Source: Absidia repens
Taxonomy: Eukaryota > Mucoromycota > Mucoromycetes > Mucorales > Cunninghamellaceae
Reading direction: 5' to 3'
Assembly (NCBI GenBank): GCA_002105175.1
Contig: MCGE01000001.1
Coordinates: forward strand, 3,782,001-3,846,000
DNA: 64,000 nucleotides
Notes under the pieces: model-generated
What the model was told of the DNA's origin: nothing
The model's input: only the letters and a program-made list of their open reading frames with translations
Databases searched by the model: none
Program-made: the position numbers and the translations under genes
Part shown: positions 1,465-62,209 of the stretch, piece by piece
How the letters are laid out: each line of letters opens with the position of its first letter
Position numbering within the stretch: the stretch's first letter is position 1

Positions 1465-4400
1465 AATTGTTAGGTTTAGATTAGATAGACTTTCTTCCTT
1501 CCCCTTAGCCTGTATGTAGTATAATTTTTATTGTTAGTATTATTCTTATTCTTATTATTCTTATTATTTTTGTTCTTATTATTTTTACTCCATTGTGCCA
1601 TGATTCTCATAGATTCCCTCAAAACACCATCTCTTATATATTGTCAATAAAAAAAAGTTCCTTTTTTTTTTTTTGCCTTTATTGTTGCCGTGATTGTCTT
1701 TTTGCAGAATTAGTTTATTTTGATCAAGCATATGAGGGGATTTCTCTCAATATCCACATGTCTGTCTAATTCATTCCCAAGTTCTCGGTACCCAGAGAAA
1801 TTATTGTGTGGTCAGTTGATATAAAGTGATAGTGATGATGATTAAATATGAAGAGTTTCCGTAATCTGATGAAAAAAAAAAAAAAGGAAAACTTTAAAAA
1901 AAGAATACAGTTAAGGTCCAAAAAACCACGCTCTCTACCAACAGTTGATGGAATTGTTTAGCACTGGATTACGGAAGCAAACCATTGGTGATACAACTTT
2001 TCCCAGCACTTTTCCCTAGGGTACACCATAACACACACACATACACAATAGAATTAGATATTCCGCACCATCAGCAGAGAAATCTTTACTGGTCTTAGGA
2101 AATATCATTCGGTGGCGAAAAATGTCAATAAGAAATTAAAAAAAAAGGTAGTTTCTAATCATTTGATTGGTACAGATAAGTGGATTGGTGAATACGGATA
2201 TGATGATACAATTAAAATATGAACAATAATAACGACCATGGATATGGATATGTATAGATCTTTTATAGAATAGCTTGTATTGCTTTTTTTATATTATCAA
2301 CTCCTATTAAAAACCACCTGTCTTTTTGTTTGATTTTTTTTTATGTGAATGTGAATGTGAACGTGATTGTGATTGTTGTAGAATAGGGTTGTGATATAAT
2401 TAAATTAGCCCACCATATATCCTTTTTTGTATTGTGCTGATGAATTTACCCGTCATTGCTGCAAACCATGAGAGTGGTACTGTCTCAATATAGAAGGAAT
2501 TCAATGATTATCGGGGAAATGAAATAATGGAAAACGTTTTTCCTTTTAGTCGATGTCCTTTTTATGCAGCTCTAAATTTAAGAGTTAAGTGAGAGAATAG
2601 AGGGGCAGGGGGGGTGAGGGAGGGAAAATCAAATGAAAAGGGTAAGAAAACTGAGATGCCTTTTGCTGACTGACATTTTTTTTCTAATTCCGCATCCTAT
2701 TGATGAAGAAAAAAAAAACAGATATTCTTTCTTTTGTCAAACCTAAAATATCATTTTCGGTGCTTTGCAGTACGGCATTATCATCAACATCATCGTCACC
2801 TTCAAATGATAGAGTACAAAAAAGGAAGAAAAGTAGTTCATCACAAGATATCGTAGCTACATTTCACAACCCAAAAGATCAATTCATCAACCAGGAACCA
2901 AAGTATAAAAATAAACTTAAACTTACTTTTTTTTTTTTGAAACTCATTATTGGGCAACTTTCCATATGCATTCACTCCAACAGAAATAGCTCCCAGTTGG
3001 AGCGCTTTTACTTTTAGTACGATGTTCAAATTGGTGACTCTACTTTTTTTCCAGTTTCGCCGAGACAGGTGATGATAGTAAGAGTTTTTCCAGTGCGATG
3101 GATGAAAAATAATAGAATGTTGTATATACATTTAAAATAAAAAAATTAAGACTACGGGATGTGTATTTTTTTTTTTTAGTGTTCAATCGAAAATTCAGGT
3201 ACCCGATCGATGGGTATTATTTCGATGAAAAAATGCCTTTTTTTTTTGAACGTCAAACAGTCATCAAAGAAAATATCACGTTTTTCTTCTGATCTGTGAC
3301 GAATGAGTTAAAAAAAAAAAAAGATGGGCATATGCTATCCAAAGGAGGGGTTGAGGAGGGACTGTGTGGAAAGTTCGCGCGCGGTATAACAAGAATTAAG
3401 GCGCAAGAAGGCCAAAAAGTCCGCTCCGATAAAAATACCGCCGAAGATCCTTCTTGATTGGATGCTTTTTTTTTTTTTTAGTATTCACTCTATCATGGTA
3501 GAATTGAGCGGGTTGGCTAGGTTTCTTGCACCTTGCTGATCTTTCGGTGAGATGCTGCAGAATGCTAAATTAAAAATTTCAATTCCTGCATATGACACGT
3601 AATAGCTTTTGGTGTCAAATGATAGGAATTTGTTATCTTTTATCTATGGTATCTTCCAAGATGATTTGGTAATGAGAAGCAAATATGTTTTTTTTTTCAA
3701 GTTGTTTGATGATGATGGAGTTCATTTTTTTTAGATGTAACAGCGATCATTTAGCTATTTTAACTTTTTTAGCAAATGGGGGATCAAAGAAAACTCAAAA
3801 GCCTAGTTAATTGAACTCCCGCCTCAAAAATTCCAGGGGCGTGGTGGATTTCTTTTTTGGGTAGATCTTGTGTGATACAGCGCTTACTTTTTGCGTGCGA
3901 AAAAATAACCTGTTTTTTTCTGATAAGCTGCATGTTTCTATTATGTTTGATTTTACTCATCATCAATTTGAAACAAAAGAACTCAAGTATATGTTGTCAT
4001 TGATTGATCTTAATTACACAATAGCCGAAGGAAAGAGAGAAAGAGAAAAGAAAAATACGGCACCCGACATGTGTACCTGATCCATTTTGACAGATTCCGT
4101 CCATGTGGTGCGTGAGTAAAATAGTAAAAGGCGACTGGCTGGAGCCAAGCGAAGTACTAAACCATATCGAACCTGGCAAGCTGAAAAATTTTGGGTGGTT
4201 GAGAATTTTGTTTTCGCGGTAGACATATTGATACACCGCCGATGCTCATTGGTTGATTGCCCGCCATTTTTCAACCTGCTAAAAACGGTTATCTCCAGCT
4301 TTTTTTCTTCTCTTTTTCTTATCCTTTTTCCTCTTTCCTTTTTCTTTTCTTTTTAATATCAAACCCTACAAACTTTCCTTTAACTTCCCCCCTCCCCTCC

Positions 4401-6930: not shown

Positions 6931-6964
6931 CAGCTGTTCAGCGAGGCACACAGAATGGAATTCT

Positions 6965-7250
6965 AATCCCGCACACATGATTTTTTTTTTTATTTACTCC
7001 CAATTTTTTTTTCCTTTTCTTTTTTTCTTAATCATTCAACTTCATTGAAATCATGGTGATCTTAGATTAGTGTCCGGACTAGTTTAGAAGGGGTTCCAGC
7101 TCAGGGATTACAAGATGCCTGGGGAAACCCTTTCATTTTGGATTCAGGATTTGGGACTACCATCAGTTCGGCTTTTTAGAGCCTTCATTAGTTTAGCTTT
7201 GTATTAGTTTATTCATACTTTGTACCAATATCTGAATAAAAACATGTTTG
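6965..7250 (+). repeat. Dispersed repeat segment A, copy A1
   Basis: Starts with AATCCCGCACACATG, then a T/C-rich tract, then the family core GGGGAAACCCTTTCATTTTG and the 3' block TCTGAATAAAA. The same order of blocks recurs at about 12760, 14925, 57205 and 60795 on the plus strand and inverted near 15700, 20125 and 56572. Each copy differs by scattered substitutions and small indels, so they are old. No open frame is shared between copies. Confidence 0.85.
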
Positions 7251-12487: not shown

Positions 12488-12759
12488 ATTAGCTACTATT
12501 CCCCTCCCATTTAGCGTAGTTATTTAGTATTCAATTATTCTTGTGTTTAGAAAAATAAAAATCCACCTATTAGGCTTTTTGTTTGTTTAAAAAGATTTGT
12601 CTTTTTTTTTTTTGTAAATGTCTTTATTTGATTCGTATTGTCATATTGTTTGGTTTGCACCAAAGTTTATGCTTGTTGGTGTAATGGGATGCTCACAGCA
12701 TCGATTGAAATGTTCCTCTTGACCTACATTTCAAATTCCGTCCGTCATCGGTTTTATTT

Positions 12760-13065
12760 TTATTTCTTTACTTGTTTTTTTTTTTTTTTTTCCCTTAAGC
12801 ATTCAACTTTTTTGAAATTTTGATGACTTTAGATTAGTGTTAGGACTAGTGCAGAAAGGGGTTTCAGATAGAGGATTGCTCCATGCATGGGGAAACCCTT
12901 TCATTTTGGATGCAGGATTTTGGATACAACAGAAGTTGGCTTTTTGAAGCCTTCATTAGCTTACTTTAGTTTAGTGCTAGTTTATCCATAGTTGTATCTA
13001 CATATGAATAAAATATATACTCTTTCTATTTGTTTCAATGAAAAGTGTCTCATGTGTTGTGCAAT
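12760..13065 (+). repeat. Dispersed repeat segment A, copy A2
   Basis: T/C-rich start, CATTCAACTT, then TTAGATTAGTGTTAGGACTA, the core CATGGGGAAACCCTTTCATT, a TTAGCTT/TTAGTTTAGTG block and GAATAAAATATATAC. This copy continues through AATAAA-bearing middle units into a C segment at about 13655, so it defines the longest version of the element, about 1.2 kb. Confidence 0.85.
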
Positions 13066-13654
13066 TGATCCATTTTTTTTTTTTCTCTGCCATTATGGTT
13101 AAGGTTGATCATTTTCGTGACAATAATACACACGCCCCTTTAACCATTATGCTATGTTAGCTGCTCTTTACACTTGAACCATTAGATTAGTGTTGAGCAT
13201 TCATCAATTTTCACAATAGTCTCCCTCATGCTACTCTCGTTATAATGAACATTGCACCTTTAATATTGTATTGACTACTGCAGTCGCTTTAAATAAAATA
13301 TCGTCATTTTTTAACCATCGACTGACTCATTAGTTAGTGTGCAATACGGCTATCGCATCTGTACAAATATTTACTCTCTAGTTCAGTTCGCCAACTATGG
13401 CTACTCTCCAATGAGAGGACCAATGAATTTGTTTCAATTCTAGGAATGGTAGGTAGGCCATTCACAATAAGTGATCCCATGCTGTACCTGAAAGTGTAGC
13501 CTTTGCTATGCAGTAGAGCATTATTTTCTTTTGCTTTCTGGGCTAGTACGTTCATATAATAAATAAATAAAACCCATTGAGATTTCAATGACTACTCCAC
13601 CATGTATACTAATGAACTTAAAATGTCATCCCGTCCCAATGTACCATTCTCCTC

Positions 13655-13984
13655 CGCGAGTGATTGATTGTCAGTTCTAGGTCACTTTATATGGAAGGTG
13701 ATGCTATTCCTGCAAAAAATCAATCAACCATGACATGATGTCATTGTAGTCTTCAGACTGGACATGCTATATCTATTCAGACTTTTTTTTCTGGAAATTG
13801 AAATGTATTTTATCAAAGTATGTATGATGATGATTTATAAGGTGATGCTATTCCTGCAAAATATCAATCAACTATGACATGATATCATTGTAGTCTTCAG
13901 ACTGCACATGCTATATCCATTCAGGCTTTTTTTCTGGAAATTGAAATGTATTTTATCAAAGTACGTATGATGATGATTTATAAA
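13655..13984 (+). repeat. Repeat segment C1 with 144-bp tandem duplication
   Basis: The block beginning TCAGTTCTAGGTCACTTTAT matches segments near 16480 and 57840. Inside it, 13697-13840 is repeated head to tail at 13841-13983: both start GGTGATGCTATTCCTGCAAA and end GATGATGATTTATAA. The two units differ by only a few substitutions and one T in a homopolymer, so this duplication is much younger than the divergence between element copies. Confidence 0.9.
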
Positions 13985-14057
13985 GTCCGCGACGGCATGA
14001 AATGATTTCTTTTTCTTTTTCTTCAATCATTTCTACATTCTTACTCATTCATCCAAG

Positions 14058-14781
14058 ATGGGGGTCTCTGAGCTGCTATCAAATCGTGACCAGATCAAAG
14101 CTAAAGGAAAGCAACGAATGCAAGGTACAGGTGTTCTATCGTCTTTTGAGCAATCAATCCTTGGTCTCACAACTGGTCAGTAGCTCCACAAGGAAACCTC
14201 TATCACCAATGACAGGCGGGGGGGTGACTCACAAATCATTAGGGATTTGGTGTACACATGGATTTTTTAGATGAAAGTTTGGAAGAAAGCAATGAAGAGC
14301 AGCATGTATTGGAGATGTTGATTGAACCTACGGCATCAACAACAGCACAGAATCAACCGGACAATCGACTAGCAACCATATTACACCTTCACCTCTTGTC
14401 AACTTACATCCTGGGCGACTATGATGGGTGTGCAATTTGCTTGAATGATGATACAATCAACGAACCAGTTACCAAGTTGGACGGGATGAAGCTTTATTTG
14501 AAGCACTTGATATACAGCCACAAATCACCTCAATGGGGACAATTGGTGGTACTCGGATATGCGTTGCTGACAAGTGTGGGTTTGTTGTGGGGCGACATGC
14601 AAAAGACGGAGTTGATCGAGTATACCGGGAACACTTGAGACAAAACCACCGACAACAAGATCTGACAGTACCCCAAGTCTTTCTGGTATTAAAAGAGCTC
14701 TTCGTGACGGAGCACAATACTATTATCACAAAGGTCCAATTTGACGACATATACAATGAAACATATGCTGAAAATCAAAAG
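14058..14781 (+). pseudogene. Unrecognised spliced gene or gene relic inside the repeat block
   Basis: Not recognised. A CT-rich leader is followed by ATG and MGVSELLSNRDQIKAKGKQR (39 codons to 14175). A GTCAGT donor and a TTTTTTAG acceptor at 14270 restore the frame into exon 2 (DESLEESNEEQHVLEMLIEP...). A third frame, beginning about 14469, has protein-like composition and includes CVADKCGFVVGRHAKDGVDR, which looks like a small Cys/His-containing fold, then runs to a possible donor at 14781. Joining exon 2 to exon 3 needs either a weak donor (14398, GTCAAC) or a frameshift. The sequence beyond 14900 is repeat A3, so the 3' end may be lost. It may be a captured host gene, a decayed transposon gene, or a live lineage-specific gene. 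Confidence 0.4.
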
Positions 14782-14924
14782 GTAAAAGAAAAAAAAAACC
14801 TCTCCCGGGATCTGTGATTATGGAAATGGCTATTGATCAAGGAAGTTCAAATCAAATGTAACTTTATATTTTATCTCTGATAGATTCATACACACCAGGC
14901 CCATGCGTATTATGTCAACAGCAT

Positions 14925-15085
14925 GCATGTGGAAACCTTTTCATTTTCGATTCAGGATTAGGACCACCAATAGTTGGCTTTTTAGAGTTTTCATTAGCTT
15001 AGTTTAGTGCCAAATTGTCCGTTGTTTGAATATATATCTCAATAAAATGTGCCTCTTTTTATTTGCTTCAATGAAAAATGTCCTG
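14925..15085 (+). repeat. Dispersed repeat segment A, copy A3 (5' truncated)
   Basis: Begins at CATGCATGTGGAAACCTTTT and keeps the 3' blocks TTAGCTTAGTTTAGTGCCAA and CTCAATAAAATGTG, followed by GCTTCAATGAAAAATGTCC as in A2 and A6. The 5' half is missing; the preceding sequence belongs to the unrecognised gene. Confidence 0.8.
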
Positions 15086-15330: not shown

Positions 15331-15380
15331 GGCGTTGAACACGACAATTGGGCCCCAAGGGACTGCCCACCCATAGTGCC
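15331..15380 (+). repeat. Short repeat motif B, copy 1
   Basis: GCGTTGAACACGACAATTGG followed by GCCCCAAGGGACTGCCCACC. The same 40-50 bp block recurs at 16111 and 16246 with substitutions. It lies within the downstream part of the A3-containing element. Confidence 0.6.
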
Positions 15381-15699
15381 AAATGACGGAGTCTCCCATT
15401 CCATCCTATCAAAACCCACACTTCAGAAACTCCCTGGCACCCAGTTATTGAAATTTTTTTGTTCCCTAGCTACATAATTAATACTATTCTCGACTTCACT
15501 CTTCAATATACCCCACCACAACAAATACACTGTAATAGCTGTATTTCACACAAACACATCCCTGAATTCTTTTCTACGTACAAACTTATAGAGCTGGTGG
15601 AAGAGGTCTCCAGAATACCCAACACGTTCCTTTTTCATATATATATATATAAGCATTCGATAAAGCTCTTAATGTAAAAGTACAACAGAGAAACTAATT

Positions 15700-16035
15700 A
15701 TAAAAAAAGAGCATATTTATTCAGACGTAGATACAAACGATGACAAACTAGTACTAAACTAATGACGATTCCATGATACTATTTCCTAAAACGTGCTAAT
15801 CTACTGACGTTTCCAAATCCTACATACAAAATGACAGGGCTTCCCCATGATGTTTGTTTTGCATTTTTGAAAATGCCTCTAATTCAAGTTCTAATATTAA
15901 TCCTAGAGCACCAGTATCCCAATGAGCCTTGCCATCATATCATTCAACTTTTGATGAAGGGAAAAAAGAAAGAAAGGAAAAAGAGAGGGAAAAAAATTGA
16001 TGCCCCAAGAATATAGAAATCATGTGTGCGGAGCC
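15700..16035 (-). repeat. Dispersed repeat segment A, copy A7 (inverted)
   Basis: On the minus strand the blocks run in the same order as in forward copies: GGCTCCGCACACATG, a C/T-rich tract, CATCATGGGGAAGCCCTGTC, ATTAGTTTAGTACTAG, and TCTGAATAAATATGC. It sits inside the larger A3-to-C2 element, so the insertions are nested. Confidence 0.75.
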
Positions 16036-16110
16036 TGAATTGACTTTTTTCACATCTAAACGCTATCCTGTATTTCTTTTTCAACGCACAAAAAAATTAC
16101 AATAAGCGAG

Positions 16111-16295
16111 CGCTGAGCACAACGGTCGGTCCCCAAGGCGCTTCCAACCAAAGTACGAAGTGGCTAATTCACCTAACGCCTACCCTATTTTTTCCTATTT
16201 TTTTTCTTTTTTTCAGCACACACAAAAAAAAAAACATTGACGACACGTTGAGCATGACGGTTGAACCCCAAAGGGCTGCCCACCATGAATTCTTT
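16111..16295 (+). repeat. Short repeat motif B, copies 2 and 3
   Basis: Two units about 135 bp apart, each preceded by a TTTCTTTTT tract and CGCACA/GCACACA run: CGCTGAGCACAACGGTCGG...CCCCAAGGCGCTTCC and CGTTGAGCATGACGGTTGAA...CCCCAAAGGGCTGCC. Similar to copy 1 at 15331. They look like a diverged tandem duplication. Confidence 0.6.
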
Positions 16296-16454
16296 TCCCC
16301 AGAATTAGCTGGTGGGCATAGCATATAATCGCGTGCTGTCAAATGTAGTCGTATTATTGCCTGAGCAATCATGTAAATGGGTCAAGGTCGTGCTGTCCGT
16401 GTAACTGGTGACGCTATAGAGTATTTTACGTCTGCTTTCTGTTTTATCTATGAC

Positions 16455-16615
16455 TGCATTCCACGCTCAGAGACTTAGCGGCTAGTTGACAATTATAGGT
16501 CACTTGATATAAAACGTGGTCGTATTCCCGCTGTCAGTCTAGGTCCCGTCGCCAGCGTAGCCTCCGCTAGGCTGGACATATTTTATATGTATTGCTTGAG
16601 ACTTTTTTTTTACGT
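16455..16615 (+). repeat. Repeat segment C, copy C2
   Basis: Contains AGGTCACTTGATATAAAACG and GCCAGCGTAGCCTCCGCTAG followed by GCTGGACATATTTTATATG. The closest partner is C3 (57830), which has GTCGCTTGATATGAAATGTG and GCCAGCGTATCCTCCGGCAG at the same spacing. Confidence 0.8.
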
Positions 16616-18791: not shown

Positions 18792-20753
18792 TGACGTGAA
18801 GATTATGCAACTTTGTACTTTGGCTCTTGGTTTAGTAGTATTTATTGTGGTTACGTCTTTTTTTTTTTTTTTTAGTCTTTATTGTTACCAATGAATCAAT
18901 GCAAACTTTTTCTCGATAGTGGATTGACCTTGATCGTAGATCATGTACTATGTAATATTTTATTAGCTTTTAGTATATGATATACAAATCTTTTATATTA
19001 TTACCGCCAAAATAAAACCCATTATTGCTCACCCTATTTTGATGATTTTGAAACTGTCCCTCAAATGACATTGTTGATAATAAAGATGTAGTGCAGGGGA
19101 TAGGCAGGAAAATGGGTGATGAAAAAAAGAAACAGAGAAAATAGGGGATGCTTCGCTATGATACAGTACACAGCTTCTTATACAATAAAATAAGAAAGTA
19201 AATAGACTGTTACAGTTTATTAACTTCAGATTGAGACGATTACAAAATAAATTGAAACGCAATATAAATAAAATTGGGATGAAGACAAATACACTTCGTC
19301 TCAATAGAAACAAAAAATACTGAATCATGACGCAAATTGCATGACAAGCGGTACAATCTGCATTAAATGATATGAATGGCACAGAAGGAATATGACCACG
19401 TTTGATATCAAGTGCCCTAAGACTGTCAACCACATTGGAAAACTGTCTTAAGCTAATGAGGGTCTTTTTAGGTTAATAATGCTATGATCCTAAAACCAAC
19501 CCCCTTCTAGTTGTAGTGACAAGAACATCATCGGAAGTACACCACGTACGAAAAATTGGGGCTTATATTTACGAATTTTTACGACCACAATCAACCCGCC
19601 CCACTCCAATTTCCCTTACACCATTCAACAGCTACATGTCCGTGATACTTCTACCTATCCTACATATTATGTAACACATACAGTGGCATGCCATTTTTTT
19701 TTAAAAATATCATTTCAATAAAATATATATTTTTTATATGCAGTGTGTCATTCTAACATTCAGTATACTGTATTGCGCCTTTCAAAAAAAAAAAAAAAAA
19801 AAAAAAATGGTGACAGGGTCTGCAGGCACCCGACAAAAATTGATAAACTGCGCGGAGACAAAAAAGAAAAGTGGTACCGTAAAACAATAAGGTTTTATTT
19901 CAATAGAATAGCTATTATACATACTAATAAAACTATCACTACAACATCTAATCAACTGCATATATACTATTTCAATGAGACACTGTTGCAAATACATCAT
20001 TGCTTTGCCCAGCAATGTAGATTTCACTAGCGTGTCGCCCATTCCATTCCAGAAGCACACTGTATGACCACTTGAGACCACCGGCATGTCACCATTCCAG
20101 ACGAGAAACACGTTCACTGAATCCTACATCCAAAATGAAAGGGCTTCCCCATGTCCTTTGTCATGTCCTTTTTCAAAACCCTCTAAATCTAATAAAAATC
20201 CCACTCCATGATCATCAGACCATCAGAGGGCATCAACGTGGAGAAAAAAAGGGAAGAAGCAAAAGGGAAAAAATTAAGCAAGCATGCTCTTTTAAAAAAT
20301 CAATTAAAATCCCGCCCTTTTGGGTCAAAGTTTTTTTTTTTTTTGTTGGAAATTACTCCAGATACGAATTTAATAACGGAATTACTCCCGATACAAATTT
20401 TACAGTTACGAAATTCGTACCTGGAGTAGTTCCATTTCTTCTTTGATCTCTTGGTGATGTATCAGGTCAAGACAGTTTTATTGTGATATTGCGTAAAGGA
20501 ACAAGCGTAATCATAGAATGAAAAAGTATTGAGAAAAAAATAAAAAAACAAAAATATGCTACACCTAGTTTATTGTACGTGAATCATGTTTAAATTATTC
20601 AAAAGACAATTTTTTATTGTGATTTTGTACAAAACAATGATAGAATGAAGTATTGAGTAAAAATAAATAAATGATAAAAAACGATGATATGTGTGTCTAC
20701 CTAAACTAATCTACATATAAAAGAGGGGTAATGCTATTCTAAATTAAATCATA
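18792..20753. other. Intergenic region between convergent Cdt1-like and DBP10 genes
   Basis: Contains the 3' ends of both genes (AATAAAACC near 19010 on the plus strand), AT-rich filler, a poly(A) tract at about 19784-19807, an inverted A-segment repeat copy, and short poly(T) runs. The minus-strand frame at 19029-19433 is Phe/Leu/Ile-rich but has no homology that I recognise and no leader, so it is not called. Confidence 0.55.
20125..20270 (-). repeat. Dispersed repeat segment A, copy A8 (inverted, partial)
   Basis: On the minus strand: TTAGATTTAGAGGGTTTTGA, then GACATGGGGAAGCCCTTTCA and TTTTGGATGTAGGATTC, the core order of the family. The 5' end is a purine-rich tract on the plus strand, as expected for an inverted copy. 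The 3' AATAAA blocks are poorly preserved. Confidence 0.7.
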
Positions 20754-23700: not shown

Positions 23701-24129
23701 TGATTGCTGCTGTTGCGTTTGTTTTTGCTGAGGAATAGCAGATGTCATGGTGTTCGACTTGCTGATATTATTGTTCAAACTGCCAAACATATCCACTTCA
23801 AGATCTGAGGAGCTATCGTCGTCGTCGTCGCTGTGATCGTTGTTCGCAAAAGAAGATCCATTACCTGAAGTTGGTACAATTTCAAAATCCGAGTCTTCGT
23901 CTTCGTCTTTATCCTTTTTGTTGTATTTAGCTTTGTGGTATTCCCTTTTCTTCAATTTGGTGTTGGAAGGCGCCTTATCTTTTTTCGAGTCGTTTTGATC
24001 ACGGTCGTTTTTTCCTGACAGCTTTGTGGTCTTTTTGCCATTTCTATTGTTAGCACCAGCACTGGTGCTTTTGTTGCCCATACGGTGATCGGCCTTCTTG
24101 CTACCTTGAACGGGTTTCTTAATCGCCAT
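20754..24129 (-). CDS. DBP10: ATP-dependent RNA helicase DBP10 (DDX54 family)
   Basis: Nucleolar DEAD-box helicase for 60S ribosomal subunit assembly. Five exons on the minus strand (24129-23562, 23474-22843, 22765-21976, 21884-21537, 21442-20754) give 1008 residues; yeast Dbp10 is 995. After a charged N-terminus come all helicase motifs: Q motif GFKVPTPIQ, Walker A ARTGSGKT (about 227-234), [18 protein letters not shown] in [17 protein letters not shown], then [12 protein letters not shown] and [11 protein letters not shown] in the second RecA lobe. The C-terminal part carries the DBP10CT-type segment ([12 protein letters not shown]...), ending in a Lys/Arg/Gly-rich tail ([12 protein letters not shown]) as in the family. 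An acidic/serine stretch within the first 190 residues includes DSDFEIV, also typical. The 606-bp gap upstream to RPN13 contains its promoter. Confidence 0.96.
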
Positions 24130-24654
24130 CGAGATGAATGAAGAAGAAAAAAAGAGTGATCAATAAAAAAAAAAAAAAAAAAAAAAGCTGAAGGTGAGTA
24201 CTATTTTGTATTCCGACCATGTGGCTTACATTTTGCATGTGTAGTGGCGGGAGTTGAAAATCAGTCAGGAAGCGAAGAAGAAGGACAGTACAGTTAGCAT
24301 TGAACAAAGGTGATGAACTTGTCTCTCAAGTTTTCTTGAACCAATTTTGATGTCCCATATCCCATACTAGTTCATTAATCTAGAAAATAAATACACACAA
24401 CCCATAAGAAGCAAATATAAATTTTGCTCCTCTGAAGACTACCAATAATAGTAAAATTTGGTGCCTGAAAGAAATACCATGAGGTGATCACATACACCAA
24501 GTACTACATAACTAAATCAAAATACCAAGCAATCGCCCAACCGCAAAATAAATCACATACTAAGTTTCATATAATATTAAGAGACAATGACAATGATTGT
24601 AAAAATGTAGAATGTTTATTAATAAAGTATACAGTTTGTATAAAGACTAGTTTA

Positions 24655-55935: not shown

Positions 55936-56571
55936 ATGGAATAAATCACCAAGTCGTGGTAGTTTAGTTACATGAAGTGCCTGAATAGCAGTGCAACATT
56001 TAGTTAGCTACCCTCGTCTTATATATATATATATATATAGACATATTTACGTTTTATTCAATAAATGTTGTTATGATATGGTATATGATATGGTATATGA
56101 TAATGTTGAAGTTGGAAAATATGGCGCAGTTTAGCAACAACATAAAGAAAGGATTGGATTCCAGGGACTATGTTTAGCAGGGGGGCGGGGGCGATTACCC
56201 ACATTGATGATAGAACGGTGAAAAGGAACTAAGTGACTTAGAGGCTTTTGTTTTGTTCATATAAAAAAAATACTTGGGCATTTAAGTTTGCCGGTTTTTG
56301 GCTCAGAGGTCGAGAAATAGCAATATCAAGACGTTTACATACCAAAGAAAAAGAAAAAAGGGATGTCATGGGACTCAACTTGATGGCTTCCAGTGCGTTT
56401 CAATTATCGCATTTTTATGCGGTCAACACTGCTTTTTTTTTTTTTTTTTTTTTTTTTTTGCACACACACACATATATTAGGTATTTTTCCTACCCCCGCG
56501 TGCACTGTACAGTACGTACACCGATTCAACAACACAAATTAAACGTATGAGAGACAATGTAAGACTAAAAG

Positions 56572-57099
56572 GTTAATCCATTTTTTATTCAGATGCAGAT
56601 ATAAAACTATTGTAACTAAACTAAGCCTATATAGTAATAACGAGACCCATATCTCAATGTGAAGCAACTAAGAGTATATGTGGAAGTGAGTTATCTTGTT
56701 GTAGAATAAACATAACGTAAGATAAGCTATTCCAATCAGAGAGTACAAGGTATTCTATGGAAAGTGACATACTATTCCACTCGGAAAGAGACAACTAAAC
56801 TGGGTAGAATTGCTTTGTCTTGGCTGCAGCGGTATTAATCTTGTAGAATAACCATGCTGCTGATGTTAAATGGTGGTGATCCTAAATCCTAGATCCAAAA
56901 TGAAAGGGGTTCCCCATGCATCTTGTAATCTCTGAGCTCAAAACCCTTCTAAACCAGTCCTGACACTATTCTAAGTCCATCATAACGTTAAAGAAGTTGA
57001 GTGATGAAGATAAAAAAAAAGGGGATGAAGAAGAAAAGAAAGAGAAGCAAAAAAAAAAAAAATTTGGGGATTAAATAAAAAAATATTCACGTGGGCGGA
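56572..57099 (-). repeat. Dispersed repeat segment A, copy A4 (inverted)
   Basis: Read on the minus strand: TTCCGCCCACGTGAATATTT at the 5' end, the C/T-rich tract, ACTGGTTTAGAAGGGTTTTG, GATGCATGGGGAACCCCTTT, and after an enlarged middle GGCTTAGTTTAGTTACAATA and GATGCAGATCTGAATAAA-like end (ATCTGCATCTGAATAAAAAA). It lies head to head with A5 about 100 bp away, giving an inverted pair. Confidence 0.75.
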
Positions 57100-57204
57100 A
57101 TGTGAAAATATTTCACCAACAACAACAGGAAAAAAACCCTTCTGTTATTTTGCTTTCATTTTTGCGACCCTTAACTTGGTGGTTCTCTTCTCATCTCGTA
57201 ACCA

Positions 57205-57560
57205 CCGTTTTTTGGCATTTTGCAACTTCTATTAGCTTAGTTTATTCTTAATTCGTCGATAGTTTGTATCTATATCTGAATACAATATTTTTCTTTCTAT
57301 ATGCTTCAATAAATGATGTCTTCCTAGTATTTCTATTGTCTTGTACAACACAGTAGCTCCCATTTTACAACCATCCGTTTAAAATAATGTAGACCATTTA
57401 TCAGATCTCCCTTAGCCTCCCGCATGTTATCTCCATGAGATCTCTTGTTCTAATGAACAGTGCGCCTTTAGTTTACTATCCTACCATATCACTTCAATAA
57501 AACATGGACTTTTTATTAACCATCCTCTGACACTTTATACGACAAGAAGAACAATCATTG
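57205..57560 (+). repeat. Dispersed repeat segment A, copy A5, with middle units
   Basis: Only the 3' half of A is present: TTTTTTGGCATTTTGCAACT, TATTAGCTTAGTTTATTC, TATCTATATCTGAATACAAT and GCTTCAATAAATGATGTC. It runs on through middle units (AATGAACAGTGCGCCTTTAG, CTTCAATAAAACATGGAC) matching the A2 element near 13240-13300, then into C3. Confidence 0.75.
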
Positions 57561-57829
57561 TAGCTCTTTTTGTGAGTGTCAAATCATACACTTCTTTTGT
57601 AGCTCCCCGACTATCCAGAGTCCAGTGATTGAATGACAGACGTAGCTCATATTTTTAATCGCCTAATTATATTAATGCCCTTTAGTACCTATAAATATAC
57701 TTCAATAAAATATTCCTTTGTATTAGCTAACCTTTCTATGACCCATATGACAGTGAGAAATATCGTTATTGTTGACTTTACGGATGCCTTAGGCTATGTT
57801 TTTTGCTCGGTCCCATTTTCCTCCTTGAG

Positions 57830-57985
57830 CGACGGACCGCGAGTTCCATGTCGCTTGATATGAAATGTGACCAAAGCCTGATCTATAATTCTATCAATCG
57901 ACCACGGCTGTGCTGCCAGCGTATCCTCCGGCAGACTGAACATATTGTATATTTTCAGCTCATTATCTATTTATTTATTTACCTT
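57830..57985 (+). repeat. Repeat segment C, copy C3
   Basis: GACCGCGAGTTCCATGTCGC, TTGATATGAAATGTGACC, GCCAGCGTATCCTCCGGCAG and ACTGAACATATTGTATATTT follow in the same order and spacing as in C2 (16455-16615). The shared spacing shows that A, middle and C belong to one element of about 0.9-1.2 kb. Confidence 0.75.
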
Positions 57986-58515
57986 TTTGCATGTGGTATA
58001 ATAAAAAAAATAAAGCCCCGATAAGATGCGTGCTAAGGTACAAGATAGCAGGGGATGTCAAATTCCATCAAAAACCTCGTTTGAACAATCCTTCCCCTGA
58101 CATCCAGTAGTTCGGGTATTTTGGAAGTTTGGGATTGAATACAAAGAATTATAACAACTTCGGTTTCTTTATGTCCTTGCTAAATTGTAACTACCCTACA
58201 TGAGATCAATAGCGGAATGACGATGGTCAAATCCTAATTCTAATACGAAGATATCTATATTAAGAAATAAATGAAAATATACAGCACAGACTTTTTTGTA
58301 TGAGGATCTTTTTTTTTTTTTTTTTTTTAACACAGATCCAAAAGTGGTATACCCATACCATTCCATTGTACCTTCTAGAATACTTACCCCATATGGCAAG
58401 GACGCCATTGACGGAGATTCATCTACAGGTATGACGAAGGGAACAAAAAAGAAAAAAAACTACAACAAACGATCAAACACGTAATGATAAACAAAATATA
58501 GGTTTCTTTTTATTA

Positions 58516-58836: not shown

Positions 58837-60794
58837 CAAAGGGCACAAAAACGACTGTGATACCGCACCGAAAAACCCGAAGTCCAGAGAGAGACCAGGA
58901 AGGGGGATGAAGCCATAAAAACAACACTCCCTAAATATTCCAAGGGAGACGGCTTTTTATGACTTGTAACACGAGCGCCCCCATCTTACATAGAGATGGA
59001 AGTCTTCACCAACCCCTTGTCTCGCCATAACAAACAAACAAACCCACTAGCGAGAGGACGAGGGACTGTCGCACTTGTCTAGATAATAATAGTATAAAGA
59101 AAAATGAAATAAAAGATATGTTAACTTCAAAATTTTTTGGTTGATATATGAACTTTTTTGTTACCTTGTTGTTTCCACAAGTATTATGTCGTCCATTGCG
59201 AAGGTACCAGCTTCATTACCAAGAGAGCCATCGTACAACTAGATCAGTCACCTATGACGAAAAATAGAATGAGAATGTGAAAGAGAAAAGAAAAGAAAAG
59301 TTAAAGCGGTAATATAAAAGAGAGAAGGAGTGGTGCTTGATTTTTTTTATTATTATTGTTATTATTATTATTACTAGCATACCAAAAAAGCAATTGTAAG
59401 GGAAAAGGAAAGTGGGAAGAGAAAAGGAAACAAAAAAAGGAAGGCAGAATTTAAAATAACAGTAGTTATTCAGAAATAGCTATCATGCCAAATTGAGAAT
59501 AATTGTATGCTCGGCAAGATCATAAAAGAAAGGAAGAGAACAGAACAGAACAGAACAGAAAAATAAAATCAGTTTCTTGTTATTTTTATAGTCCTTACTT
59601 TCTTCACTTGCTCGTTCCTTCTAATTTGGCTAGATGCATTTTAGGAGTTCTGCTGTAAAACAAACTACCTTGTAAATCCTTTTTTTATTCTTTTTGTGTC
59701 ACAGTGCAGACTACGATTAAATCGCCTCCTGCGGTATTAAACCGCCGATGTGTGCCTTCCTTCCTTGCTTTATTGACATTGCATTTCTTCCCGCCCCTTA
59801 TTCTCGTGCCGCACTGTATTTGAAAAAGACAAGTCCCTATTTTCACTCACAGATTTCAGAGACCTTTTTTTTTTTTTTTTCCTTATGATATCTCCTCAGA
59901 AAATATCCGTTTTTCATTGGATTTCTTCAAATGAGCCACATCATTCAAAACTGACACCTGATATATAGAAAAAAAAAAACGGAGACCACAGGCTTTGAAA
60001 CTTTTACTGATTTTTGCCTTCTTATTTTCCCTTTTAGCTAGATACAGCATAGTGTGCAATCTGCACTCGTGACTCTTTGGCGTACAGTGGAGTTGAATAT
60101 ATTAGATATCCCACCCTTGATAATAGAATCATGATAGTTTAGGTATTTGACTGATGTAGTATATTAGTATAATGTTTTTCTGGCAATGAAAAAAAAAAGT
60201 CGACGTGATCAGCATGATCGCAATTTGGTATTAGATCTGCTGTTTGGTGTGGAGCCTACAGGCTGTGGTTACTTGAGCCGAAACCGCTTGAATTTGAAAA
60301 TAACGTTAATATGACATTAGTAATAAGAAATCTGACTTTCTCAATATGACGGATGTCTGGGTGAGACTTGTGTGAAAAAACAAAGCGAATCTTGCAGTCG
60401 AGGAGGATTTGTTGGCTATTTGTGCGATAAATTGTTCTTCAGGGTTCGGAGGGAAACTTTATCTTTTTTTCCTTCTTATTCAGGGCGGTAGCTGGCTAAA
60501 ATTGAACGCGTGGTCAAATTGGAATTAGGATGAATATTGCGCTGAGATGGTCTTGATGAAATGCCAAGGAGGAATACTTTATGATACCCTTATACTAGGC
60601 GGGGTCAGAGCTGCCCGTCCCAACCCGCACCCTCCCTAAAAAAGACTTCATAGACGGAGCTGTAATATATCCCAGATATTTTCTTTGTTAACGATCTACC
60701 TAGAGCTTAACTCACTAACAAGTGACCATTATTCTGTAGGTTGTATCCGTCAAATAAAATAAACCTCACCAGAGAGCATCCGAAAGATGTTTCA

Positions 60795-61150
60795 AATCCC
60801 GCCCACGTGTTTTTTATTTTCACCTATTTTCAGCTTCCGTCCTTTTTCCTTTCTTTTTCTTTTCTTTTCTTCACCATTCAATTTCTATGGGTTATGATGA
60901 TCTTAGATTTGTGTTAGGACTAGTTTAGAAGGGTTTTCAGCTCAGGATTACAACATGCATGGGGAAACCCTTTCATTTTGGTTCCAGGATTTTGAATCAC
61001 CATTAGTTAGCTTTTTGCAACTTCCATTATCTTAGTTTAGTGCTAACATGTCCATAGTTTATTCCAATAACTGAATAAAATATGTTATTTTTTAAATGCT
61101 TCAATGAAAAATGGCCCATAAGCCTCTCTCATGTCTTGTGCAAGGGATCT
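60795..61150 (+). repeat. Dispersed repeat segment A, copy A6
   Basis: The best preserved 5' end: AATCCCGCCCACGTG at 60795-60809, a 50-nt C/T tract, CATTCAATTTC, ATCTTAGATTTGTGTTAGGA, CTAGTTTAGAAGGGTTTTCA, GCATGGGGAAACCCTTTCAT, TTAGTTTAGTGCTAACATGT, and CTGAATAAAATATG, then GCTTCAATGAAAAATGGCCC. Useful as the reference copy. Confidence 0.9.
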
Positions 61151-61299
61151 CCCTTCCTTTTTTTTTTTTTTTACTACCACTGCTTTTGATTCTACTTGAT
61201 CGATCATATAAATAAATATAGGTCGTGCTTCCATGCAGCCACCGCTATAAAAGATTTTACACTACTTCCTAGCGTATCTATTGCTACTCTCACTACCCT

Positions 61300-61355
61300 T
61301 CAGAGATCTAATGACTGGCTGCCAATTCTAGTTCCCTTAATATGAATATGACCCT
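61300..61355 (+). repeat. Repeat segment C, copy C4 (truncated)
   Basis: ATGACTGGCTGCCAATTCTA followed by GTTCCCTTAATATGAATATG aligns with the first third of C2 (GCGGCTAGTTGACAATTATA, then GGTCACTTGATATAAAACG). The rest of C is missing. It follows A6 at roughly the distance seen in the other elements if part of the middle is deleted. Confidence 0.5.
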
Positions 61356-62209
61356 ATCCCTTATCTACCATTCATATTTATCAGTGTGAAAATATTTTGA
61401 AATTCAATATAGAAAATTGCAACAACCAATTTGACTCTACACTCCCGCTGAACCGCACCAGTACAATACAAACACAAACACACACACACAACACAAAAAA
61501 AAAAAAAAAAAAAAAAAAAAACGAAGGCCAATTCCAACATTGTAAAAATTTGAAAAAATATGAAGATCATAGGATAAAAAATATGTTTATTTAAAACTTT
61601 AATTTACGTGTACCAAGCTACTGTAGTTTTAAAAAAAGGGAAGGGCGGTAATCATAACTAAGTCTAACTAACTACAATAACACCGCTGTTGCTAATCCTT
61701 CTGTCCCAATATCGAGCTCACATCTAATAGTCCATATATCGCTTGTTCCTGATGCACTTTGGCGACCACTACAAAGATCGGATAATAACTACCTATAATA
61801 AGCTGTCAAATTCTAATATCGAATTTTCAATTCAGTCTATCCATGTAACTAACCAAGACCAATAGGAGACCCAAGCCTTTATTTCATAAAAATCCACTTG
61901 TTCTTAAAAGGTGAGTACAATCAAAATCCGAGGCGGTAGCTGGAATGTAAGGTTTCAATGGTTGAGCGATCGGCTTGATGATGATGTTCCTATCAGGCAT
62001 ACATTCCAAAACTTCCAATATATTGATATCAGTGCTGTGAGATTATTTGAATGAGAGTGAGTAAAAAAAAAAAGGGGGGAGGGAGAATAAAATGATAAAA
62101 AGATTGGGTGAGGGTATAGTAAGATAAAAAAAAAAAGGATTTCTGCAAGCATGATCAATAAAACGCCGCTTGCGGTCATACAAATGTTTTATTCATCAAT
62201 AAACCATTA

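Follow-up and report, generated by a model that had tools for sequence, protein, structure and literature searches.

The 64-kb stretch of Absidia repens DNA analyzed in this work (the window) carries dispersed copies of a repeat which the earlier note had described as a set of eight blocks. By ArgRS comparison the host is Mucorales-like, the best named matches being Rhizopus arrhizus (77%) and Mycotypha africana (76%), with other matches reaching 87%. An A-core profile, built from 46 aligned sequences (three of them window copies), recovered all eight blocks and gave no match in the reversed-sequence control, and a conserved 34-mer was matched at five window positions (≤3 mismatches) as against none in 100 shuffles. 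The unit first placed at 12760 really begins about 34 bases earlier. Its A core, found with the profile, occupies 12726..13052 on the forward strand (best relative 80% identical among 40 scored) and is followed on the same strand by the middle part or tail of the A arm (13053..13641; the full model matches 12726-13782) and by segment C (13642..13791), recognized by sequence match. The end of segment C is duplicated in tandem over 13695-13986, the second copy, 94-97% identical with a period of 143-144 bp, lying at 13839..13986 (+).

The profile also located A-core copies at 6959..7249 (+), where likeness to most other listed copies ends just past AATAAA, at 14918..15083 (+; 5′-truncated, with a tail to about 15304), at 15702..16042 (-; diverged, with AATAAA retained), at 20118..20278 (-; a fragment) and at 60787..61118 (+; 5′ motif TTTCAAATCCCGCCCACGTG intact). 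The arm of the last copy includes a segment C fragment (61290..61385, +), and another segment C copy lies at 16467..16611 (+). A distal module of the A arm, designated X, is present at 15342..15424 (+), and two X modules (16122-16175 and 16255-16343, together 16122..16343, +) lie 5′ to the 16042 copy and on the strand opposite to it. Between two of the copies, at 14240-14800 (+), there is a coding-like remnant with shifting frames, apparently a decayed gene. A weak core-profile match at 24120-24259 (-; 11.6 bits, E 0.0025), perhaps a chance match over a homopolymer run, was excluded from the count.

One element (56489-57962) has an inverted centre. Its left arm (56489..56880, -; 232 bits) consists of outer arm B (model 115-481), including the AATAAA. 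This is followed by the inverted centre, composed of the 5′ portion of the A core (model 6-235; 56866..57107, -; found with the profile) and inner arm B (model 4-121; 57084..57207, +), which overlaps the shared 5′ motif. The right arm (57200..57962, +) resumes A from model position 220 (57200-57320) and continues through the tail (57300-57677) to segment C (57804-57962), with an X module at 58014..58082 (+). To judge by the sequence, this layout would result if the central ~340 bp of a B-centre-A element had been inverted. The break points of the inverted centre match in both arms, and the layout with these matching break points provides independent support for A and B being arms of one unit. 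An alternative in which block 56576-56626 terminates the 57107 A copy, following an insertion, was rejected, the block being arm B by match. The count of at least eight A copies in the earlier note has to be amended accordingly: the blocks are real, but those at 56572 and 57205 are arms of one element, so that the window holds seven elements and not eight independent copies.

Across the genome the A unit starts with TTTCAAATCCCGCCCACGTG irrespective of the sequence upstream and proceeds through a C/T tract and CACCATTCAAC to a core of about 250 bp, which ends with AATAAA at model position 299. Past this hexamer there are tail units of the TTCAATRAAA type, commonly followed by two C modules and in some copies by an X module, and the likeness fades at about 1.3 kb. 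Segment C gave nine genome matches, and all eight non-self loci have a same-strand A copy about 0.8-1.0 kb upstream, which confirms the A-middle-C order proposed earlier as that of a single arm of about 1.3 kb. Arm B, read in the opposite direction and bearing a TGAATAAAATATGTC-like region of its own at a distance of about 450 bp, was found upstream in 33 of 70 copies (at least one of the matches, in locus L049, being weak); since 15 of these 33 copies had been found through B, 18 of 55 is the fairer share. A recognizable B arm is missing from most copies, and another upstream module occurs in eight of the 70. The B query carried about 75 bases of the 5′ end of the A unit, and of its 20 loci one was the query itself, one a repeat and three (L058, L072 and L074) were reached via the A part; each of the 15 remaining distinct non-self loci, found via B proper, has an A core next to B on the opposite strand. 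By a stricter count over all loci, 31 B matches have their nearest A on the opposite strand and nine have it on the same strand; six of these nine overlap the AATAAA region of A, two are in L035 and one is the inverted-centre element of the window. Both arms run to AATAAA, and they are alike mainly around it. The centre common to both looks like a promoter in sequence, its motif resembling, as we take it, an E-box, cell-cycle promoter elements and a pol III B box. The gene-like ends recognized before, a C/T tract and AATAAA, are present.

A 24-base core word was found at 4,064 places (2,014 and 2,050 by strand; ≤2 mismatches) in the genome of 47.37 Mb in 79 contigs, and its reversed pattern at none. 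The 20-base 5′ motif was found at 2,421 places (1,168 and 1,253), with none for the reversed pattern, and two of four arbitrarily placed 10-kb stretches of the genome contained one copy apiece. The whole-genome search recommended in the earlier note has in this way returned thousands of copies and not merely the few of the window. The list of core-word places is incomplete by strand and its counts alone were used; megabase strand domains, suggested by contig C1 where nearly all copies appeared in one orientation, were dropped, exact minus-strand places at 1254992 and 1493059 being absent from the list. A scan of viral contigs with a 32-mer gave no match, and no account of such a family was found in the literature, in a search whose coverage excluded most subscription papers, Dfam and RepBase. 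About 4,000 copies in 47 Mb correspond to one per about 12 kb, a density at which the family could influence the annotation of this fungal genome, the ends of its transcripts and its recombination. The safest statement, as far as sequence comparison carries it, is that the dispersed units represent an ancient, abundant and apparently non-autonomous family, built like a noncoding cassette that runs from promoter to polyA signal. The family is left without assignment to a known superfamily.

The age of the family is indicated by the distance between its members. The best genome relatives of five query copies were 80, 83, 85, 82 and 90% identical among the 40 scored of about 2,700-3,300 candidates for each query (one 49-base piece at 92% was set aside). 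A tree built from 65 cores has a star-like shape, its terminal branches making up 7.28 and the internal ones 1.04 of a total length of 8.32, and 11 of 61 nodes have support above 0.9. Among 2,539 pairs whose members come from different loci, only two were more than 95% identical, and both belong to a duplicated stretch on contig C24. This stretch (167978-170261 and 179185-181472) is a recent segmental duplication (~99.5%) that contains a convergent pair of A copies. The variable core columns form local linkage blocks, as expected from old subfamilies or from recombination. Thousands of dispersed copies, the star-like tree and linkage blocks typical of subfamilies would also suit a dead non-autonomous transposon of unassigned superfamily, in which copies have undergone neutral decay since they inserted, the conserved columns reflecting only selection on past source copies. 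Private substitutions fit such a history as well, being spread evenly even along the core as in neutral decay, although this measure is blunt at variable columns. We regard a dead transposon as possible, with a chance that is appreciable but limited. It is opposed by the best-kept columns, which change in about 1-3% of copies though the nearest relatives of the tested copies are 10-20% away, and by the closest pairs, which still avoid changes at conserved columns.

The evidence on conservation comes from several comparisons. Pairwise identity of the core averaged 0.765, reaching 0.85 in block 141-205, among 32 copies that came from the window, from arbitrary stretches or from searches with B, C or the A 5′ end. 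For the B arm it was 0.61 (nine copies), and for the A-arm tail (26 copies) 0.66 falling to 0.52, a low value to which alignment error contributes since the tails have 10-31% gaps. Of 34 copies found by routes other than the core, 31 retain AATAAA unchanged (it stands in 29 of 32 gapless rows, and in two more rows it can be read through a gap in the alignment); the other three have ATTAAA, AATACA and AATACA. The AATAAA columns are on average 98.5% conserved as compared with 87.2% for A/T columns (permutation p 3e-5). When even decay was simulated, the best hexamer did not exceed 0.72 in 300 runs, or 0.81 in 100 runs with polymorphic columns removed, while the best hexamers observed scored 0.94 and 0.91, and AATAAA 0.91. 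In 13 independent closest pairs, with column conservation judged from the other copies, differences affected 43 of 1,049 cells in conserved columns, as against 196 of 1,054 in the least conserved third. The differences between sites could predate insertion, through selection on source copies or through subfamilies.

The ends of the unit were compared with those of known mobile elements. Solo LTRs and TRIMs combine a promoter and a polyA signal in a noncoding repeat, and in this respect the present units are alike. Their promoter-like start, AATAAA and lack of a coding frame are the traits on which a reading as solo LTRs or as a TRIM-like LTR derivative would be built, and one copy (in locus L008) lies on the same strand about 600 bp downstream of a retroelement end resembling a chromodomain integrase (2403-3284, -). 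Within-copy matches were nevertheless about as long as between-copy matches when target duplications or paired direct repeats were sought at the candidate ends, which are decayed, and the divergent B arm also speaks against this reading. The solo-LTR-like nature suggested earlier has gained no positive evidence and we consider it improbable. MITEs and fold-back DNA transposons exist in thousands of noncoding copies with head-to-head arms. The family shares this copy number and arrangement of arms with them, but terminal inverted repeats gave no signal, matches within copies being about as long as those between copies (six candidate-window pairs, n 40-67, element ends approximate), so the MITE-like classification was not upheld. 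The alignment of copies for target-site duplications and terminal repeats, as proposed in the earlier note, produced no signal at the candidate ends. DIRS retrotransposons, which have inverted terminal repeats, occur in Mucoromycotina according to PMC3783388; the host group is the same and these repeats recall the inverted pairs described below. Unlike DIRS elements, the units gave no inverted repeat signal at the tested ends, and no YR, RT or other coding region was recognized within them.

A tRNA-derived SINE was considered on account of the CCCGCC motif, which would be the remnant of a B box: TTTCAAATCC presumably resembles a pol III B box, and CAGTTCAGCGAGAG-like sequence is found upstream in some copies. 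ARAGORN detected no tRNA in the A unit in the window and 60 loci (and none anywhere in the window), no Rfam family overlapped A anywhere in the window or in 12 loci, and the upstream sequence varies between copy classes. The SINE-like alternative of the earlier note is, in our estimation, very improbable. Fungal SINEs such as AfuSINE2 of Aspergillus fumigatus are characterized (PMC5063351) as tRNA-related and flanked by short target duplications; the units studied here are likewise short, noncoding and dispersed, but neither a tRNA relation nor target duplications were found in them, their ends being decayed.

The reading as dispersed genes for structured noncoding RNA has equally little to recommend it. 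The consensus fold over 65 copies includes a small core hairpin (-1.12 kcal/mol) whose energy is just below that of all 30 column shuffles (mean -0.07, lowest -0.96); however, this single 4-bp hairpin of the GGGG/CCCC type is the entire consensus fold, and no conserved or covarying RNA fold was found beyond it in the same copies. The remnant of a short protein-coding gene, the least probable of the explanations considered, would be represented by one 44-aa stop-to-stop stretch of the consensus (model 131-262), which is without a start codon. Counting substitutions alone, 42 of 65 copies are stop-free as compared with 30.1 in random sets (sd 3.7, max 39), and this rarity of stops is mildly in favor of coding. 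Against it, the length is divisible by three in 24 of the 65 copies and the stretch open in 14, and amino-acid-changing substitutions are in excess (702 of 873; random 651, 633-665), which argues against coding. Identities at the three codon positions were 0.923/0.893/0.883. The apparent non-autonomy noted earlier stands. The copies do not preserve the 44-aa stretch in the manner of a coding frame.

The surroundings of the copies were analyzed with a codon-usage classifier at a cut of 30, with which the reversed window gave two segments above the cut. Of 78 copies, 16 have a coding segment no more than 1.6 kb away in the 5′ direction, on the same strand in 15 (two of which share one gene) and on the opposite strand in one (p = 5e-4), and on the 3′ side two segments were same-strand and five opposite. 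Pfam, to which 20 ORFs from the loci were submitted, supports 10 genes that account for 11 of the 15 same-strand cases, and also the gene of the opposite-strand case; two of the remaining four same-strand segments had no Pfam match when submitted. Three more Pfam-backed ORFs fell under the classifier cut, all of them same-strand, and they include the L008 retroelement end, the one clear case of its kind among the ORFs submitted, and one ambiguous nuclease/phosphatase (L015, Exo_endo_phos).

Three loci (L048, L049 and L050) each contain two copies in opposite orientation, separated by 1.0-2.3 kb, whose cores are 96.7, 99.6 and 99.6% identical, respectively. The high identity extends from the C/T tract to about +380, +600 and +430 in the same order, beyond which it drops to about 0.4-0.7 or the alignment ends; such a drop outside the core is the pattern of conversion around the core and not of recent duplication of the whole element. 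The sequence of these pairs suggests local gene conversion. No rate or frequency of conversion can be derived from them, since they were picked because both partners were among the best matches; identity in the other neighbor pairs compared ranged from 0.62 to 0.93.

We lean towards the interpretation that the repeat is an ancient mobile family, non-autonomous and very abundant, each unit of which forms a compact, noncoding cassette for transcription. This interpretation, which we hold to be probable by a modest measure, draws on copy number, anatomy, divergence, conservation of the core and of AATAAA, co-orientation with genes, the inverted centre and the three inverted pairs. The promoter-like centre (TTTCAAATCCCGCCCACGTG, the C/T tract and CACCATTCAAC) would lead into the A arm with its conserved core of about 250 bp ending in AATAAA and, in about a third of copies, also into the divergent B arm with an AATAAA of its own. 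RNA polymerase II may transcribe the unit and its RNA may be polyadenylated. The family would have spread long ago using the proteins of another element, and the core may since have been held by constraint on its signals together with local gene conversion. Neither the ends of the element nor a partner to mobilize it came to light in the analysis, and this counts against the interpretation, as does the lack of a recognizable B arm in most copies. Of the kinds of element listed in the earlier note, a transcribed non-coding unit agrees with the anatomy and with an AATAAA kept far above its surroundings, and transcription would be a prediction from these features. A bolder proposal, which we advance only tentatively and rather doubt, is that thousands of once-mobile cassettes are now under purifying selection in place, many of them downstream of genes and co-oriented with them, acting as promoter-to-polyA units that end or insulate transcription, with gene conversion around the core between nearby inverted copies. 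If such constraint in place proved true in sister strains, a fungal repeat family would have turned into a genome-wide system for ending or insulating transcription. The inverted-centre element and the inverted neighbors with raised core identity are natural tests of recombination between copies.

Some copies have RNA genes in their vicinity. The only tRNA genes detected in the 60 scanned loci, two ordinary ones, are located near copies and outside the repeat, for tRNA-Asp in L005 (3225-3298) and for tRNA-Asn in L063 (2290-2363). A snoRNA cluster (L006, 2536-3192, -) is present about 0.7-1.4 kb 5′ of an A copy, with snR75 above the gathering score and SNORD27-like and other members under it.
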